From Hufsiella arboris (GTDB lineage: Bacteria; Bacteroidota; Bacteroidia; Sphingobacteriales; Sphingobacteriaceae), in assembly GCF_009834875.1 (NCBI RefSeq), contig NZ_WVHT01000008.1, forward strand, positions 62,001 through 126,000: DNA of 64,000 nt. Reading direction: 5' to 3'. The first letter of the stretch is position 1. Every line of letters begins with the position of its first letter. Under the pieces are notes generated by a model. That model made no database searches, was not told the origin of the DNA, and saw nothing but the letters and a program-made list of their open reading frames with translations. This document shows positions 56,491-63,092 of the stretch, piece by piece. A program made the position numbers and the translations under genes.

Positions 56491-57120
56491 ATGATTGCAC
56501 CGGATAAAAACTCGAGGTTCCCGCTGGAACATTATACAAGGCTTTGTTTTCTCAAAAACATCATTACTAATCCGAATATCATCGTAGGAGATTACACGTA
56601 CTACGATGACTTTGAAGATGTCTACAATTTTGAACGGAACGTAAAATATCATTTCGAATTTATTGGCGATAAACTCATTATTGGAAAGTTCTGTATGATT
56701 GCCTCCGGAGTAACATTTATTATGAACGGTGCAAATCACCTTGCTAATGTTGTCTCCGCTTATCCATTTGCAATTTTCGGCAGCGGCTGGCAGGGAGCTA
56801 TGGACGGCAAAAGTTATCCGGTGAAAGGTGATACGATTATAGGTAACGATGTATGGCTGGGCTATAACGTTACTATAATGCCGGGGGTAAATATCGGTGA
56901 CGGCGCTATCATTGCGTCAAATTCTACGGTTACAAAAGATGTTGAGCCTTATTGTGTGATTGGAGGCAATCCGGCCCAAGAGATAAAAAAACGTTTCTCA
57001 GACCAAGCCATTGACGATCTTTTGCATATACAATGGTGGAATTGGGATATCGATAAAATCACAAGAAACGTCCATCTGTTGACGGATCATAATATTGAGG
57101 CTTTGAAAAATGCGGTTTAA
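56491..57120 (+). CDS. Vat-type xenobiotic O-acetyltransferase (CatB/VatD-like)
   Basis: This 209-residue left-handed beta-helix hexapeptide acetyltransferase has PNIIVGDYTYYDD (about residues 28-40), LIIGKFCMIASGVTFIMNGANH with the catalytic His of MNGANH (about residue 82), GDTIIGNDVWLGYNVTIMPGV and DGAIIASNSTVTKDVEPY. The same pattern is found in virginiamycin/streptogramin A acetyltransferases and type B chloramphenicol acetyltransferases. Environmental homologues are frequent and resistance is not proven. A short hairpin and a possible 14-codon leader ORF precede the start. It is monocistronic, 81 nt after the plug protein. Confidence 0.88.
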   Translation: MIAPDKNSRFPLEHYTRLCFLKNIITNPNIIVGDYTYYDDFEDVYNFERNVKYHFEFIGDKLIIGKFCMIASGVTFIMNGANHLANVVSAYPFAIFGSGWQGAMDGKSYPVKGDTIIGNDVWLGYNVTIMPGVNIGDGAIIASNSTVTKDVEPYCVIGGNPAQEIKKRFSDQAIDDLLHIQWWNWDIDKITRNVHLLTDHNIEALKNAV

Positions 57121-57324: not shown

Positions 57325-60300
57325 ATGAAAAAACTTTTACTCATTTTCCTGTTTTTTGTAATTTCTGTTTGTTCAGTGCAGGCGCAAACAGTTGTAATCA
57401 GTGAAATATACGGTGCCGGCGGCAATGCTGGCGCGGTATTTACCAACGATTTCATCGAATTATACAACCCCACAAATGCTTCTATAAATTTGACAGGTTG
57501 GTCGGTTCAGTATGCCAGTGCTGCTGGAACGAGCTGGGCTACCATTCCACTCAATACCAGTATTGCAGCACATGGATTTTATCTGGTCCAAGGATCGGGA
57601 GGTGCTAATGGCGCAGCTTTGCCAGCAGCAGACGCGAGTGGTACAATAAACATGTCTGCCACAACCGGCAAAGTTGCACTGGTAAGCACCTTAACGGCTT
57701 TAAGCGGAGCGAGTCCTGTAAGTCCTACAATTGTTGATCTTGTCGGCTTTGGAGGTGCAACTTTTTATGAAGGAGCTGTGGCTCCAAGTCCAAGTTCGAC
57801 AACATCAATTGAACGTAAAGCAAAAATTACGTCAACCACAACTACAATGACCGCTGGCGGAATCGACGAATTTTTGGGTAATGGTTATGACAGCAATAAC
57901 AACGCCCAGGATTTTGTGACCGGTGCACCAAGGCCGCAAAATACAGCATCGCCAGCTGAATCAGCTGTTACAGCACCAATCCCATCAATTTCTGTAAACC
58001 CGACGTCTTTAACATTCACAGCTCAGTTGATAAACACGACTTCAGCCAGCCAGCAATATAATTTGTCTGCTGCAAATCTTGATGGCAGCGATGTTACAGT
58101 TACTGTTTCCGGTCCATATACAATTTCCAAAACTTCTGGTGGAGCGTTCGGTTCATCGCTGACGTTCTCTAGCGCAGACTTTGGAAACTTCCCGCTTTCC
58201 ATTTATGTACAATTTAAGCCAATAGTAACCGGTGCAGCAACCGGAACAATTACACACGCTGGTGGCGGCGTTGCATCCGGGCCAACCGTTAGTTTAACAG
58301 GAACCGGAATTGCTGAACAATTAACGGCAAGTACAGCTTCCATTGATTTTGGGAGCCAGGACATTAATACAAATTCCGCTTCCAAACCATATATATTAAG
58401 CGGTACAAATCTAAGCGGTGATGTAAACGTAACCGTCCCGGCGCCTTTTTCGGTTTCGCGTGATAATACTTCTTTTACTAATTCTATCACGTATGGTGCT
58501 TCGGAATTCAGTTCACCGCAAACGGTTTATGTTCGTTTTTCGCCGGCGTCTACAGGAAATGCGTCCGGTGTAGTATCAAACACCAGTGTTAATGTCGCTA
58601 ACATAGATATCCCATTAACCGGAATTGGAACGAGTTCGGCGCCTGCACCTAAAATTGTTATCAGTGAACTATACGGTGGCGGGGGGAACTCGGGAGCGGT
58701 TTATAAAAACGATTTCATCGAACTATATAACCCGACAACTTCAGCTGTCGACCTCACGGGCTGGTCTGTTCAATATACAAGTGCAGCCGGAACAGGTAAC
58801 TGGACTGTAACGCCATTAAGCGGAACTATCGCGTCTAAAGGATACTTCCTGATCCAGGAGGCTAAAGGTACCGGTGGAACAACCGATTTACCAACTCCGG
58901 ATATTACCGGAACTATCGCCATGGCAGGTACTGCCGGGAAAGTAATTTTGTCTAACAGTACAGTTGTATTAAGTGGTGCCAATCCAACCGGAAATTCGAT
59001 AGTTGATAAAGTAGGATTTGGTCCGACTGCTACCGGGTTTGAAGGAACTGCGCCGACGGCTGTTTTAACGAATACAACATCTGCCGAACGTAAAGCAAAC
59101 GCTGCCTCAACCGCAGCCAGCATGGCCTTTGGTGGTGCGGACGAGTTACTGGGAAATGGTTATGATACGGATGACAATGCATCCGATTTTGTGATCAGTC
59201 AGCCAAATCCACAAAATTCATCCCTGGCGGAACCTCCTGCGCCATCTAACAATCCCGTTTTAACAGCTTCTTCCACAAACCTGACGTTTGTCCAGGCAGT
59301 TAATACTACGTCGCTTTCTCAGAAGTATACCTTGTCTGCGGCTAACCTGGCCGGTCCGGTTTCCTTAAGTACAACGGCGCCGTTCAGTATTTCAAAGGAT
59401 AATGCCAACTTTTCAACAACAGCAGAATTTACCGCAGCAGAACTTGCCACGACACAAACAGTATATATTCATTTTAGTCCGACCGTTGCTGGTACCAATA
59501 CAGGAACGATTAGCCATACAAGTGCAAATGCGTCTCAATTAATTCTCAACCTCGTTGGAACGGGAATTGATCCCAATCAAACTAAATTTGCTTTTGAAAA
59601 CTGCAGCACCAGCGGAAGCAGCGCTTTGTCGGATGGATTTTACCAGTACAGCGTTACCGGCGCTCAAAAGTGGGGATGTATCACAACTTTCGGGCATGAT
59701 GCAAACGATGCTTCAGGGTCAGGCAGTGCTGGTAATGCCTTGCAGATTAATGGTTATTCCGGCGGAAACGTTCAAAATGAAGACTGGCTGATATCGCCGC
59801 CATTGCTCATTTCGTCCTTTACCTATCCAATACTATCTTACTGGACGCGTTCGGCCTTCAATGGCGACAAGCTTCAGCTTAAGGTTTCAACGAACTATTC
59901 GGGCAGCGGCGATCCTAAAAATGCCACCTGGACTGATGTTAATGGTAAATTTCCGGAACCGGCTTCTGATATATGGACTAAAACGGATAATATTGACCTT
60001 TCAGCATTTAAGTCATCACCAGTGTATGTGGCGTTCGTTTATAATTCCAGCACGACTTCCGCTTCCAGGTGGACGGTTGACGATTTCTCAGTTAGAAATT
60101 CTTCAACTCCGGCAGCAGTAGAGATAATAACTTCGACAGGTTCCGTTAATTTCGCTTACCAGGCGCCGGAAACATCTTCAGCAGCTCTCCCGATTAATTT
60201 TTCAGCGAGCAATTTAACAGCTGACGTGACGGTAAGCGCACCGCAATATTTCGGTATTTCTAAAACTATCGATGGTGTATACGGCAATTCGCTTAGCTAT

Positions 60301-62181
60301 CCTGCTGCAGAGATCAATAACACATCACAGAGTTTCTACGCAAAGTTTAATCCGGTGGCAGCTGATAAGAATTATACCGGTAGCCTGACATTTTCAACTT
60401 CTGGAACAGCAAATAAGTCAATCAGCTTTTATGGAAATACGTTCAATGTTGACAATAGCCTGGAAGTTGTGAATTGGAATATCGAATGGTTCGGAAGTCC
60501 GGCTCAGGATCCATCCAATGATCAGTTGCAGGCAACAAATGTTAGCACTGTTGTAAATTCGCTCAAAGCGGATATTTACGGTTTTGCCGAGGTTGTGGAT
60601 ACAACTTTGTTTAAAACAAAAGTAATGCCTGCCGGCTACCAGGTTGTTTTTAGTGATTTTGGATCTTATGCAGATGATAAAAATGATCCAGACTATGCCT
60701 TGTCGCAAAAACTGGCTTTTATGTACAAGCCTGAAATTATTAAGCCTTTAGAGGTATTTGGTATATTGCGTAACACTTATTATCCGTCGAATCTCAGCAA
60801 CAGCACCGATGGTTCACCGTTCAAAAACTGGTCGTCGGGCAGATTTCCTTTCGTGATGAAGGCGCAGGTAACCTTAAATGGTAAACAGGACACGGTTTAC
60901 TTTATCGAGATTCATGCTAAGGCAAATACCGGTACGACAGCAGAACAAATCGATTCGTATAACCGCCGTAAAGGTGGGGCAAGGCAGCTAAAAGACTGGC
61001 TTGATGCTAACCTTGCGGGTAAAAAAGTGCTGATCATCGGAGATTTTAACGATGTACTGGATCCGGATAAAACTATTGCACCGCTTCCGGCCGGAACAGG
61101 AACATCTTATTCAGACTTTACAAACGACACAGCGAAATATGTACCGCTTACTTTGCCATTAAGTTTAGCCGGAAAACAATCGACAGCCGGCTTCAAAACA
61201 GTTATTGATAACGCGATTGCCAGCAAGAGCCTGAACGTAAATTATATTCCCGGATCAGCCGAAGTGCTTGATAATGTTAAAAATCTTGTAGCCAGTTACA
61301 GTACGACAACAACGGATCACTACCCAATTAAAACCCGCTATATTTTAAGTAATAGCGCTCCGACAATAAATAGGGTAGCCGATCAATCAGTATGTTACTC
61401 TAGCAACCCGCAAACCATCGAATTAAGCGGTATTTCGGCTGGTAACGATGCAAATCAGGCAGTGAGCCTATCAGTGACTGCTTCAAATAATGCCGCATTC
61501 GACGTATTGACCGTGCAGCCGGTATCATCCGGTAAGTCGGTTCTGACTTATCATTTCAAAAATAATTCGTCCGCCACTTCGCTGATCACGGTAACTGTAA
61601 GAGATAACGGCGGTACAGATTTTGGCGGAATCGATACTAAGACGATCAGTTTGAAGTTGACTGAGGTTCCTTTAGCTCAAGTAAACATAGTAGCGGATGC
61701 AACTACGGTCTCGAAAGGCGGTATCGTTAAACTGTCGGTACAGCAGCAAGCCGGCCAAACGTATCAGTGGACAGGAGCCGATATTCAAAGCGGGCAAGGC
61801 ACAAATCAGCTTGTTATCCGCCCGAAAGAAACAGGTACATATAAAATAACAGCAACCAACAGTTTAGGATGTACCGTGGAGGCTTCGATTTCGATCACTG
61901 TGGTGAAAGACCATAAGTTCGATATCACAAATGTTCTTACTCCAAATGGGGATGGCCGTAACGATTTCTTCGTCATCAAGAATATCGACTATTACCCGGA
62001 AAATACCGTAAAGATTTTTGATCGGGCTGGTCGCCTTTTATATTCCCAAAAGGGATACAACAACACCTGGGATGGTACTTACAATGGCAGCCCGCTGGCC
62101 GAAGGGACATATTACTACATCATCGATATGGGCGCAAATGTTGGCATATTCAGGGGCTATATTAACATCATTCGCGATTAA
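57325..62181 (+). CDS. T9SS type B secreted protein with two lamin-tail domains and an endonuclease/phosphatase domain
   Basis: This 1618-residue protein has a signal peptide (1-20). The order is a lamin-tail domain (VVISEIYGAGGN, about 22-205), two Ig-like anchor repeats (221-435), a second lamin-tail domain (443-630), another repeat (642-750), a choice-of-anchor/jelly-roll domain (752-930), a fourth repeat, and an endonuclease/exonuclease/phosphatase domain (1045-1340: VVNWNIEWFG, GFAEVVD, IEIHAKA, LIIGDFNDV, TTTDHYPI). It ends with Ig/PKD-like domains and the type B gliding-motility C-terminal signal (FDITNVLTPNGDGRNDFF, 1533-1618). The EEP residues for metal and phosphate are present, so nuclease or phosphatase activity outside the cell is likely. 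It pairs with the PorP/SprF gene 11 nt downstream. Confidence 0.88.
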   Translation: MKKLLLIFLFFVISVCSVQAQTVVISEIYGAGGNAGAVFTNDFIELYNPTNASINLTGWSVQYASAAGTSWATIPLNTSIAAHGFYLVQGSGGANGAALPAADASGTINMSATTGKVALVSTLTALSGASPVSPTIVDLVGFGGATFYEGAVAPSPSSTTSIERKAKITSTTTTMTAGGIDEFLGNGYDSNNNAQDFVTGAPRPQNTASPAESAVTAPIPSISVNPTSLTFTAQLINTTSASQQYNLSAANLDGSDVTVTVSGPYTISKTSGGAFGSSLTFSSADFGNFPLSIYVQFKPIVTGAATGTITHAGGGVASGPTVSLTGTGIAEQLTASTASIDFGSQDINTNSASKPYILSGTNLSGDVNVTVPAPFSVSRDNTSFTNSITYGASEFSSPQTVYVRFSPASTGNASGVVSNTSVNVANIDIPLTGIGTSSAPAPKIVISELYGGGGNSGAVYKNDFIELYNPTTSAVDLTGWSVQYTSAAGTGNWTVTPLSGTIASKGYFLIQEAKGTGGTTDLPTPDITGTIAMAGTAGKVILSNSTVVLSGANPTGNSIVDKVGFGPTATGFEGTAPTAVLTNTTSAERKANAASTAASMAFGGADELLGNGYDTDDNASDFVISQPNPQNSSLAEPPAPSNNPVLTASSTNLTFVQAVNTTSLSQKYTLSAANLAGPVSLSTTAPFSISKDNANFSTTAEFTAAELATTQTVYIHFSPTVAGTNTGTISHTSANASQLILNLVGTGIDPNQTKFAFENCSTSGSSALSDGFYQYSVTGAQKWGCITTFGHDANDASGSGSAGNALQINGYSGGNVQNEDWLISPPLLISSFTYPILSYWTRSAFNGDKLQLKVSTNYSGSGDPKNATWTDVNGKFPEPASDIWTKTDNIDLSAFKSSPVYVAFVYNSSTTSASRWTVDDFSVRNSSTPAAVEIITSTGSVNFAYQAPETSSAALPINFSASNLTADVTVSAPQYFGISKTIDGVYGNSLSYPAAEINNTSQSFYAKFNPVAADKNYTGSLTFSTSGTANKSISFYGNTFNVDNSLEVVNWNIEWFGSPAQDPSNDQLQATNVSTVVNSLKADIYGFAEVVDTTLFKTKVMPAGYQVVFSDFGSYADDKNDPDYALSQKLAFMYKPEIIKPLEVFGILRNTYYPSNLSNSTDGSPFKNWSSGRFPFVMKAQVTLNGKQDTVYFIEIHAKANTGTTAEQIDSYNRRKGGARQLKDWLDANLAGKKVLIIGDFNDVLDPDKTIAPLPAGTGTSYSDFTNDTAKYVPLTLPLSLAGKQSTAGFKTVIDNAIASKSLNVNYIPGSAEVLDNVKNLVASYSTTTTDHYPIKTRYILSNSAPTINRVADQSVCYSSNPQTIELSGISAGNDANQAVSLSVTASNNAAFDVLTVQPVSSGKSVLTYHFKNNSSATSLITVTVRDNGGTDFGGIDTKTISLKLTEVPLAQVNIVADATTVSKGGIVKLSVQQQAGQTYQWTGADIQSGQGTNQLVIRPKETGTYKITATNSLGCTVEASISITVVKDHKFDITNVLTPNGDGRNDFFVIKNIDYYPENTVKIFDRAGRLLYSQKGYNNTWDGTYNGSPLAEGTYYYIIDMGANVGIFRGYINIIRD

Positions 62182-62192
62182 CATCACTTTAA

Positions 62193-63092
62193 ATGAAAAG
62201 ACTTATCAACCTATATAACCTGTTTTTGCTGATTGTTTTGTTAGCAATAGCCGGTCGCGTGCAGGCGCAGCTTTTGCCGCTTAACGCGCAATATTATCAA
62301 AATAAATATCTTTCAAATCCTGCATTTGCAGGTATAGACGCCGGTTACAGTATCAACGGAAGTTTCCGGAAACAATGGAGCAATATTCCGGGATCACCAA
62401 TCACTCAGGCCGTGACCTTTGATGCGCAGGCTGGGAAAACCGGTTGGGGAATTAATTTCTTTAATGAAAAATCGGGCGGATTGCAGCGCACAAAGGCTGT
62501 GGCAACATATGCCTATCATTTACCCTTAGGCGACAATGACCAGAAATTGAATTTCGGATTATCGGTGGGGGCGCTTCGCGACCACCTGGATATGGATGAT
62601 GTTAACGACCCGAATGATCCGTCAGTCGCTCGTTTCAATGATCGGGGCACCGTTGTCGATGCAGATTTCGGTCTGGCGTATACTGATAAAAATCTTTCGG
62701 TGGAGGCTGCTTTGCCGAATATGCGCATGCTTTTTGACAGGGAAGATGATGAGCGTTATTATTCAGACAGGCCAACATTTTATTCAGCAGTAGGCTATAA
62801 GTTCACTTTCGGTGAAGCTATGAATGCAATCGGCGTTGAACCCAAAGTCGCTTATCGCGGTGTAAAAAACTTTGACGATCTCTGGGATGCCGGCGTAAAT
62901 GTGAGCCTGGTAAATAACAAAGTATTTTTAATGGGAATGTACCATAACACAGAAAACGCAACCTTCGGATTTGGTATGAACTTTAAATCTACGCTATCCG
63001 TTATGGGTTTTTACGACACCAATACATCCGAGTTGAACGGTTATTCGAATGGTAATTTCGAGGTGAGCCTGCGGGTAAATCTTAAAAAATAA
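62193..63092 (+). CDS. PorP/SprF-family T9SS membrane protein
   Basis: This 299-residue outer-membrane protein has a signal peptide (about 1-25) and the PorP/SprF signature LNAQYYQNKYLSNPAFAGID near the N-terminus, followed by barrel strands such as FRKQWSNIPGSP and a C-terminal FEVSLRVNLKK. PorP/SprF proteins bind type B T9SS substrates encoded beside them and are needed for their surface attachment or secretion. It follows the 1618-residue substrate by 11 nt in the same direction, so the two form a substrate/partner pair. Confidence 0.92.
   Translation: MKRLINLYNLFLLIVLLAIAGRVQAQLLPLNAQYYQNKYLSNPAFAGIDAGYSINGSFRKQWSNIPGSPITQAVTFDAQAGKTGWGINFFNEKSGGLQRTKAVATYAYHLPLGDNDQKLNFGLSVGALRDHLDMDDVNDPNDPSVARFNDRGTVVDADFGLAYTDKNLSVEAALPNMRMLFDREDDERYYSDRPTFYSAVGYKFTFGEAMNAIGVEPKVAYRGVKNFDDLWDAGVNVSLVNNKVFLMGMYHNTENATFGFGMNFKSTLSVMGFYDTNTSELNGYSNGNFEVSLRVNLKK

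Follow-up and report, generated by a model that had tools for sequence, protein, structure and literature searches.

The gene pair and its layout

In this study we examined two adjacent genes of Hufsiella arboris (RefSeq assembly GCF_009834875.1), encoding a large predicted enzyme with the tail of a type B substrate of the type IX secretion system (T9SS) and a protein of the PorP/SprF family, together with the evolutionary history of their association. The pair lies in a stretch of 64,000 nucleotides (nt) of contig NZ_WVHT01000008.1 (positions 62,001 to 126,000, forward strand), which is referred to here as the window. The first open reading frame (ORF; 57325-62181, + strand) encodes 1618 amino acids (aa) and the second (62193-63092, + strand) encodes 299 aa, with a spacing of 11 nt between them. 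A previous sequence-only reading had described the pair as a T9SS type B substrate, carrying lamin-tail domains (LTD) and an endonuclease/exonuclease/phosphatase (EEP) domain, followed by its PorP/SprF partner. The 1618-aa protein is built in the order putative signal peptide, LTD, two immunoglobulin (Ig)-like repeats, LTD, Ig-like repeat, anchor-J-like domain, Ig-like repeat, EEP domain, Ig/PKD-like linker and type B tail. The features are as follows, in window positions.

57325..57387, + strand: putative Sec signal peptide, aa 1-21 (MKKLLLIFLFFVISVCSVQAQ); hydrophobic N-terminus, by eye from the translation
57385..57969, + strand: lamin-tail domain 1, aa 21-215; Pfam LTD and similarity to domain 2
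57982..58623, + strand: two choice-of-anchor-D-like Ig repeats, aa 220-433; NF012200 best stretch 320-418 (protein below cut-off) and similarity among relatives
58636..59244, + strand: lamin-tail domain 2, aa 438-640; Pfam LTD best stretch 438-565, 54% identity to domain 1
59248..59565, + strand: third Ig-like repeat, aa 642-747; Cep192_D4 stretch 646-747 and CFAP65 Ig stretch 684-747, both below cut-off
59587..60099, + strand: choice-of-anchor-J-like domain, aa 755-925; alignment to relative L046, whose aa 299-467 match NF038128 (4.5e-17)
60127..60444, + strand: fourth Ig-like repeat, aa 935-1040; alignment to relatives
60457..61347, + strand: EEP (DNase I-fold) catalytic domain, aa 1045-1341; Pfam, invariant residues, structure model and fold match
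61357..61899, + strand: Ig/PKD-like linker, aa 1345-1525; domain label by eye
61921..62175, + strand: T9SS type B C-terminal signal, aa 1533-1617; TIGR04131 and CHU_C
62193..63092, + strand: PorP/SprF outer-membrane partner, 299 aa; PF11751 and TIGR03519

The type B signal proposed earlier was recovered by the NCBIfam model TIGR04131 (T9SS type B C-terminal domain; 70.2 bits against a curated cut-off of 35) and by Pfam CHU_C (E 7e-25, 87.4 bits), and by this C-terminal domain the 1618-aa protein is classed as a predicted T9SS type B substrate. For the 299-aa protein, PF11751 (PorP_SprF; E 1.2e-53, 182.9 bits against 22.3) matched nearly the full length and the NCBIfam model TIGR03519 scored 179 bits against a cut-off of 90.55 (E 1.4e-52); having passed both family models, it is a predicted member of the PorP/SprF family, and the presence of a PorP/SprF gene 11 nt after the substrate gene is borne out by the ORF positions and by both models. 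Pfam LTD matched the larger protein in two stretches (E 1.8e-27) and Pfam Exo_endo_phos gave 25.1 bits against a cut-off of 24.5. The EEP motifs named in the sequence-only reading are present, with NWNIEWFG starting at aa 1050, GDFND at 1239, and DHYPI at 1331. Its count of four repeats is a fair description, although the models give weak backing: choice-of-anchor-D matched three stretches at E<=1 with a whole-protein score of 18.8 bits against a cut-off of 45, and the fourth repeat was placed by alignment only. The anchor domain is likewise assigned through alignment, and its choice-of-anchor-J label was taken from relatives because the window protein itself has no match to that model at E<=1.

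Coupled exchange of tail and PorP partner

A search for this architecture across Bacteroidota, as had been proposed, used the best 80 of 106 relatives found in a pattern search of genome contigs, and these divide into 20 type B proteins (plus that of the window) and 60 type A proteins. TIGR04131 is found in all 21 members of the window's group (L026-L045 and the window), with TIGR04183, the type A model, not among their matches; TIGR04183 is found in all 60 others (L046-L105; 33/33 and 27/27), with TIGR04131 not among theirs. Cross-matches comprise one type A protein with a weak Pfam CHU_C match (E 0.0014) and four of the 21 type B members with weak matches to Pfam Por_Secre_tail (best E 0.004). 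A PorP gene is present in the locus of 20/20 type B and 0/60 type A relatives, some of these loci having short flanks. The PorP profile is not blind to distant PorPs, because a further round recovers the nine other PorPs fetched from the window's genome. Outside the window's family, every relative sampled has a type A signal on this enzyme core. The type A set also includes three Pedobacter loci with EEP domains 68-69% identical to that of the window. When aligned with type A Pedobacter proteins, the window protein shows 57-58% identity over aa 640-1341/1348, and homology stops at the end of the EEP domain. Judged from these matches, signal and partner have changed together.

In a survey of 400 genomes of the order, 51 matched the enzyme core and 13 weak partial matches (E 2.3e-5 to 8.7e-4) were dropped, leaving the core in 38 genomes and most genomes without it. 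These comprise 29 type B genomes, the window's included, and nine type A genomes, the other 37 being assigned with tail profiles of our own (28 and 9). Many of these 37 loci come from the same genomes as the set of 80 relatives and, therefore, do not provide independent counts. PorP lies directly 3' of the enzyme gene in 24 of the 28 type B loci (gap 8-15 nt, with one 98-nt overlap arising from start choice), and in the remaining four a second type B gene intervenes; no PorP was found in the nine type A loci of the order. Three of the second genes belong to genus g2 (L152:2727-3434, L156:3436-4143, and L159:3436-4143) and encode a 235-aa type B mini-substrate between enzyme and PorP, in which a single Ig-like repeat was recognized by eye in L156 and L159. 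The fourth, in Pedobacter planticolens (L042:10544-15514), encodes a 1656-aa type B protein without an EEP match, the beginning of which is similar to that in the consensus of the type B enzyme proteins, and one PorP may serve two substrates there. This species had been a candidate for a type B enzyme with no PorP, as the stretch fetched for L172 contains none; the longer locus L042, whose contig is equal in length, shows the 1656-aa gene followed by PorP, and the candidate was rejected.

Across the phylum, 120 of 395 genomes matched at E<=1e-10, and 40 loci were chosen and fetched, 20 of them mostly with long frames and 20 others. With our type A profile, 35 matched at E<=1e-3, two matched weakly (0.0021 and 0.019), and three did not match; four had weak type B scores (0.0015-0.044), far behind their own type A scores. 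No clear type B tail and no PorP were seen among these 40 loci. Spread of the enzyme on plasmids was rejected, with matches in 3 of 72,556 plasmid records, all below 60% identity. A lamin-tail protein with an EEP match is encoded on a 602-kb Bernardetia plasmid (L146:3973-9264), adjoining an IS1182 transposase gene, and a Streptosporangium plasmid, from outside Bacteroidota, also carries a lamin-tail protein with an EEP match.

In Pedobacter-type genomes, type A and type B loci have the same upstream gene, found at 22 of the 28 type B loci and eight of the nine type A loci. We take this gene to be Sua5-like, from its appearance, and the genes that often lie downstream to be NhaA-like, with presumed trp-like genes beyond. 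Seven loci do not have the upstream neighbor: L155, L170, and L174 show the NhaA-like gene instead, L151 has 1.5 kb of upstream flank, and the three genus g2 loci sit elsewhere. Type A and type B versions thus occupy one Pedobacter locus, and signal and partner would therefore have been exchanged in place.

The history of this locus was followed in two trees. For three neighboring genes, 24 loci were chosen and one was left out for having too little sequence; in the resulting tree of 23 loci, the type B loci form a single clade (100/98; 100% of 200 bootstraps). The EEP tree of 78 rows, from which 23 Chitinophaga rows (one metagenome-assembled genome among them) had been removed and to which ten loci each had been added from the 37 of the order and the 40 of the phylum, requires three changes between type A and type B. 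None of 200 bootstraps (0%) has one change, and a single type B clade is rejected (p-AU 1.9e-51). Part of the conflict between the two trees arises because the placements of genome G164 (locus L180) disagree: its flanking genes and PorP fall inside the type B clade, and its EEP domain falls with type A proteins of another subfamily. Sliding identity accounts for this disagreement. Over aa 351-1047 the L180 protein is as close to the type A protein of L182 as to type B proteins, or closer, and clearly so over most of the EEP domain, which ends at 1047; from aa 1051, type B tails alone align, at 48-82%. The first 350 residues have no strong likeness to either group (18-38% to two type B proteins). 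As such, we read L180 as a mosaic whose joint lies immediately behind the catalytic domain, with another catalytic subfamily placed on a type B tail.

It is possible that the tail and its PorP arose only once on the enzyme and that the head was then replaced twice, in genus g2 and in G164, and we rate this history at a little under an even chance. A tree of PorP partners, in which eight of the 20 from the set of 80 relatives, five from order loci, and that of the window were included, places all 14 on one side of a branch, albeit with weak support (73/51). The placement of the G164 flanks and PorP inside the type B Pedobacter clade, with an EEP domain of another subfamily, also fits head replacement. 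However, the genus g2 loci do not share the neighbors, and their PorPs group in a separate clade. Rejection of a single type B clade on the EEP tree tells against a single origin at first sight, yet it is expected under either version. Exchange of tail and PorP as one cassette holds whether there was a single tail gain with head replacement or several tail gains.

The window's genome contains 10 PorPs, and according to ORF lists, the gene immediately before PorP has a type B tail in eight cases, that of the window among them; in one case such a gene comes after it. The remaining one (L186:4944-5960) stands without a neighboring type B gene in the fetched stretch and could serve orphan type B substrates. 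The nearest paralogues of the window tail score 135 and 110 bits and the next 61, and the nearest paralogues of its PorP score 291 and 228 bits and the next 92. Since the two loci nearest in tail are also the two nearest in PorP, it fits the sequence data that tail and partner share a history in this genome. Both nearest paralogous cargoes look adhesin-like (Cadherin, MBG_2, and Cadherin-like), and aa 1342-1617 of the window protein are 44% identical to an adhesin-like paralogue of the same genome.

The catalytic head and its likely substrate

Structure prediction of the EEP region, which the sequence-only reading had recommended, gave a DNase I fold. The AlphaFold model, built from 50 rows, has a mean pLDDT of 94.3, and its top Foldseek matches are DNase I. 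In VIA-align, human DNase I aligned at Z 25.3 (root-mean-square deviation, rmsd, 3.0; 245 residues aligned) and the Bacteroides mannosyl-6-phosphatase BT3783 at Z 24.2 (rmsd 2.5; 237 aligned); on the predicted model these two are about tied, and the fold does not separate nuclease from phosphatase. The residues N1052, E1089, H1197, D1240, N1242, D1295, D1331, and H1332, which we take to be catalytic by analogy with DNase I, are invariant in 81/81 rows (the window and 80 relatives), such that no catalytic Asn, Asp, or His is missing. The conservation of N1052 in part reflects how the rows were selected, because one of the six search patterns spanned it. Fold and Asn/Glu/His/Asp set both place the domain in the EEP superfamily.

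Among the 81 members, weak matches to nuclease families at E<=0.01 number 49 for MnuA and 17 for ExeM/NucH (NF033681), and none of the latter falls in the window's group, A1. The EEP superfamily also includes phosphatases, and a surface phosphatase or phosphodiesterase, acting on a sugar phosphate, phospholipid, or phosphoprotein, would suit the fold result, with BT3783 about one Z unit behind DNase I. It would also suit a search of solved proteins with the profile of EEP rows, which gave weak partial matches (best E 0.024, an EEP domain-containing protein); a plain sequence search for a solved EEP relative had given one chance match and nothing useful. This alternative is nevertheless unlikely in our view. 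The weak family matches are to nucleases, and ExeM, a proven nuclease, likewise combines LTD and EEP domain (PMC6085458). We prefer a nuclease for these two reasons, and the enzyme is most likely, by analogy, a DNase I-fold phosphoesterase acting as a nuclease on extracellular DNA or RNA.

A nuclease warhead of a polymorphic toxin aimed at neighboring cells is hardly credible. T9SS-linked polymorphic toxins are known in Bacteroidetes (PMC7073777), but here the EEP domain is internal and the C-terminus is the TIGR04131 tail rather than a toxin domain, although no search aimed at TANFOR domains or immunity genes was made. Moreover, the EEP domain is 41-77% identical to that of the window across 49 sampled relatives, and the gene after the substrate is PorP.

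The lamin-tail domains at the other end of the protein had been read as near-identical DNA. The shared 15-nt word indeed has exactly two occurrences in the window, one at 57445 and one at 58708, with a spacing (1263 nt) that agrees with the 1.26 kb proposed. However, the similarity was overstated, as the copies are just 73% identical over 160 nt of DNA and 54% over 191 aa of protein. In the LTD tree, copy 1, on a long branch, joins Chitinophagaceae LTDs and copy 2 joins Pedobacter LTDs (94/94 each, not starred). Because of these identities and the separation of the copies in the tree, a recent internal duplication was rejected and the duplication looks old.

In the same window, an ORF at 56491-57120 resembles hexapeptide-type acetyltransferases of the xenobiotic (Vat/CatB-like) kind, a name given by eye from the translation.

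Proposed mechanism and relation to known systems

The genomes that carry the two versions of the enzyme also differ in their type A tails. Counting enzyme-bearing genomes only, TIGR04183 matches number 17-70 per genome where the enzyme is type A (nine genomes) and 3-10 where it is type B (29 genomes), with no overlap (Mann-Whitney p 7e-6, without ancestry correction), and the low counts include some cross-matching type B tails. Type B tails have not expanded in parallel, as the window tail finds 13, 9, 10, and 12 in four type B genomes and 18 in one type A genome. SprA and PorV were found in 6/6 genomes tested, and the window's genome carries both of these T9SS genes; loss of either as the cause of low type A counts was rejected for these six. 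PorU was looked for only beside PorV, by reading the ORF lists of six genomes, type A-rich and type A-poor (L293-L298), and no ORF of its size lies between PorV and a gene named by eye as GldJ-like, although PorU may lie elsewhere. In Flavobacterium the gene order is gldJ-porU-porV, unlike the close GldJ-like gene and PorV of L293-L298.

We consider it likely that the pair represents a surface-held type B nuclease with its cognate PorP, and that tail and PorP are exchanged as one cassette. The enzyme would be made with a Sec signal and then cross the outer membrane via T9SS as a type B substrate. The PorP/SprF protein encoded 11 nt downstream would collect it and hold it at the cell surface; we infer that the enzyme depends on this PorP and is retained without cleavage. 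The type B tail and PorP would stand, as one cassette, in the place that a type A tail without PorP has in other Bacteroidota, with catalytic heads and tails recombined at the end of the EEP domain and, in Pedobacter, at a fixed chromosomal locus. According to PMC10994853, type A tails use PorV and their cargo is then released or linked to lipopolysaccharide, whereas type B cargo exits on other carriers, which anchor it; PorP has been described as binding the type B protein PG1035 (PMC9143113). With the switch, an enzyme that had been released or linked to lipid may thus have come to be held on a barrel in the outer membrane, and the products of digestion would be kept near the cell.

It is also conceivable, although rather unlikely, that the PorP partner does no more than shuttle the enzyme, which would then be released or travel on the gliding track instead of being fixed in place. 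In Flavobacterium, laboratory tail swaps show that the T9SS tail decides the destination of the cargo, and some type B signals of F. johnsoniae send cargo to the gliding machinery while one keeps it static (PMC12618676). Against such a shuttle, the next gene 3' of PorP lies on the opposite strand.

Several findings weigh against the interpretation of a surface-held nuclease on an exchanged cassette. Matches of the relatives to nuclease models are weak (MnuA, best E 2.8e-9; ExeM/NucH, best E 8.5e-7; L079 scores 22.3 bits against a cut-off of 185), the window protein matches no nuclease family model at E<=1, and a sugar phosphatase, BT3783, is almost as near in fold as DNase I. There are three independent contrasts between type A and type B, and while all agree on PorP, the sign test gives p 0.25. 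The window gene lies away from the Pedobacter locus, among different neighbors, and its genus is represented in the order sample by only one further genome, G001, which gave no match. The lower number of type A tails comes from comparing one group of genomes with another and is confounded with ancestry.

As a broader and more tentative scenario, to which we give somewhat less than even odds, the type A secretome would have collapsed in part of the family, and the enzyme would have been kept by moving, in place in Pedobacter, onto a portable type B and PorP cassette for secretion and anchoring that is otherwise found on adhesin-like proteins. A released or lipid-linked nuclease would then have become barrel-held. 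What we describe seems to be a natural tail swap on the same enzyme at one chromosomal locus, with the shuttle gained together with the tail, and the second catalytic subfamily on the same tail would serve as a control for it. Because the swap would have taken place at one locus, related Pedobacter strains, such as P. chitinilyticus (L047, type A) and P. zeae (L029, type B), form matched pairs that bear on two questions: does type B export retain the enzyme at the cell, and what made type A export shrink? The range of type B cargo would widen from adhesins to an enzyme.

Among known systems, SprB-SprF, Fjoh_3952-Fjoh_3951, and PG1035-PorP resemble the window pair in their TIGR04131 tail and in the PorP/SprF gene directly 3', but differ in that the cargo of the window is an enzyme. 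The type A T9SS EEP proteins of Chitinophaga, Hymenobacter, Segetibacter, and others share the same core of anchor-J, Ig, and EEP domains (EEP 41-57% identical to the window in the rows sampled); they differ in the type A tail and in having no PorP in the locus (60/60). Shewanella ExeM (ExeM/NucH) is similar in combining lamin-tail and EEP domains and is inactive without the latter, but differs in its OB-type region and in ending with a membrane/rhombosortase tail where the window protein has a T9SS tail (PMC6085458); the window protein does not match the curated ExeM/NucH model, NF033681, at E<=1. The Riemerella T9SS endonuclease AS87_RS02955 (NF052644) is alike, by name, as a T9SS-exported nuclease; relative L046 matches the N-terminal part of this model (44.4 bits against a cut-off of 260), and the window protein has no match to it at E<=1. 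Neither a case of type A and type B tails exchanged in nature nor a similar T9SS nuclease was found in the parts of the open literature covered, most subscription journals being outside this scope; the papers listed do include one on T9SS components and their horizontal transfer (PMC7323717). Each component of the pair is thus of a known kind. As far as we have found, two things are new. One is type B cargo that is an enzyme and has a PorP of its own; the other is that tail and partner were exchanged jointly and in place, with a mosaic in which head and tail are separated.

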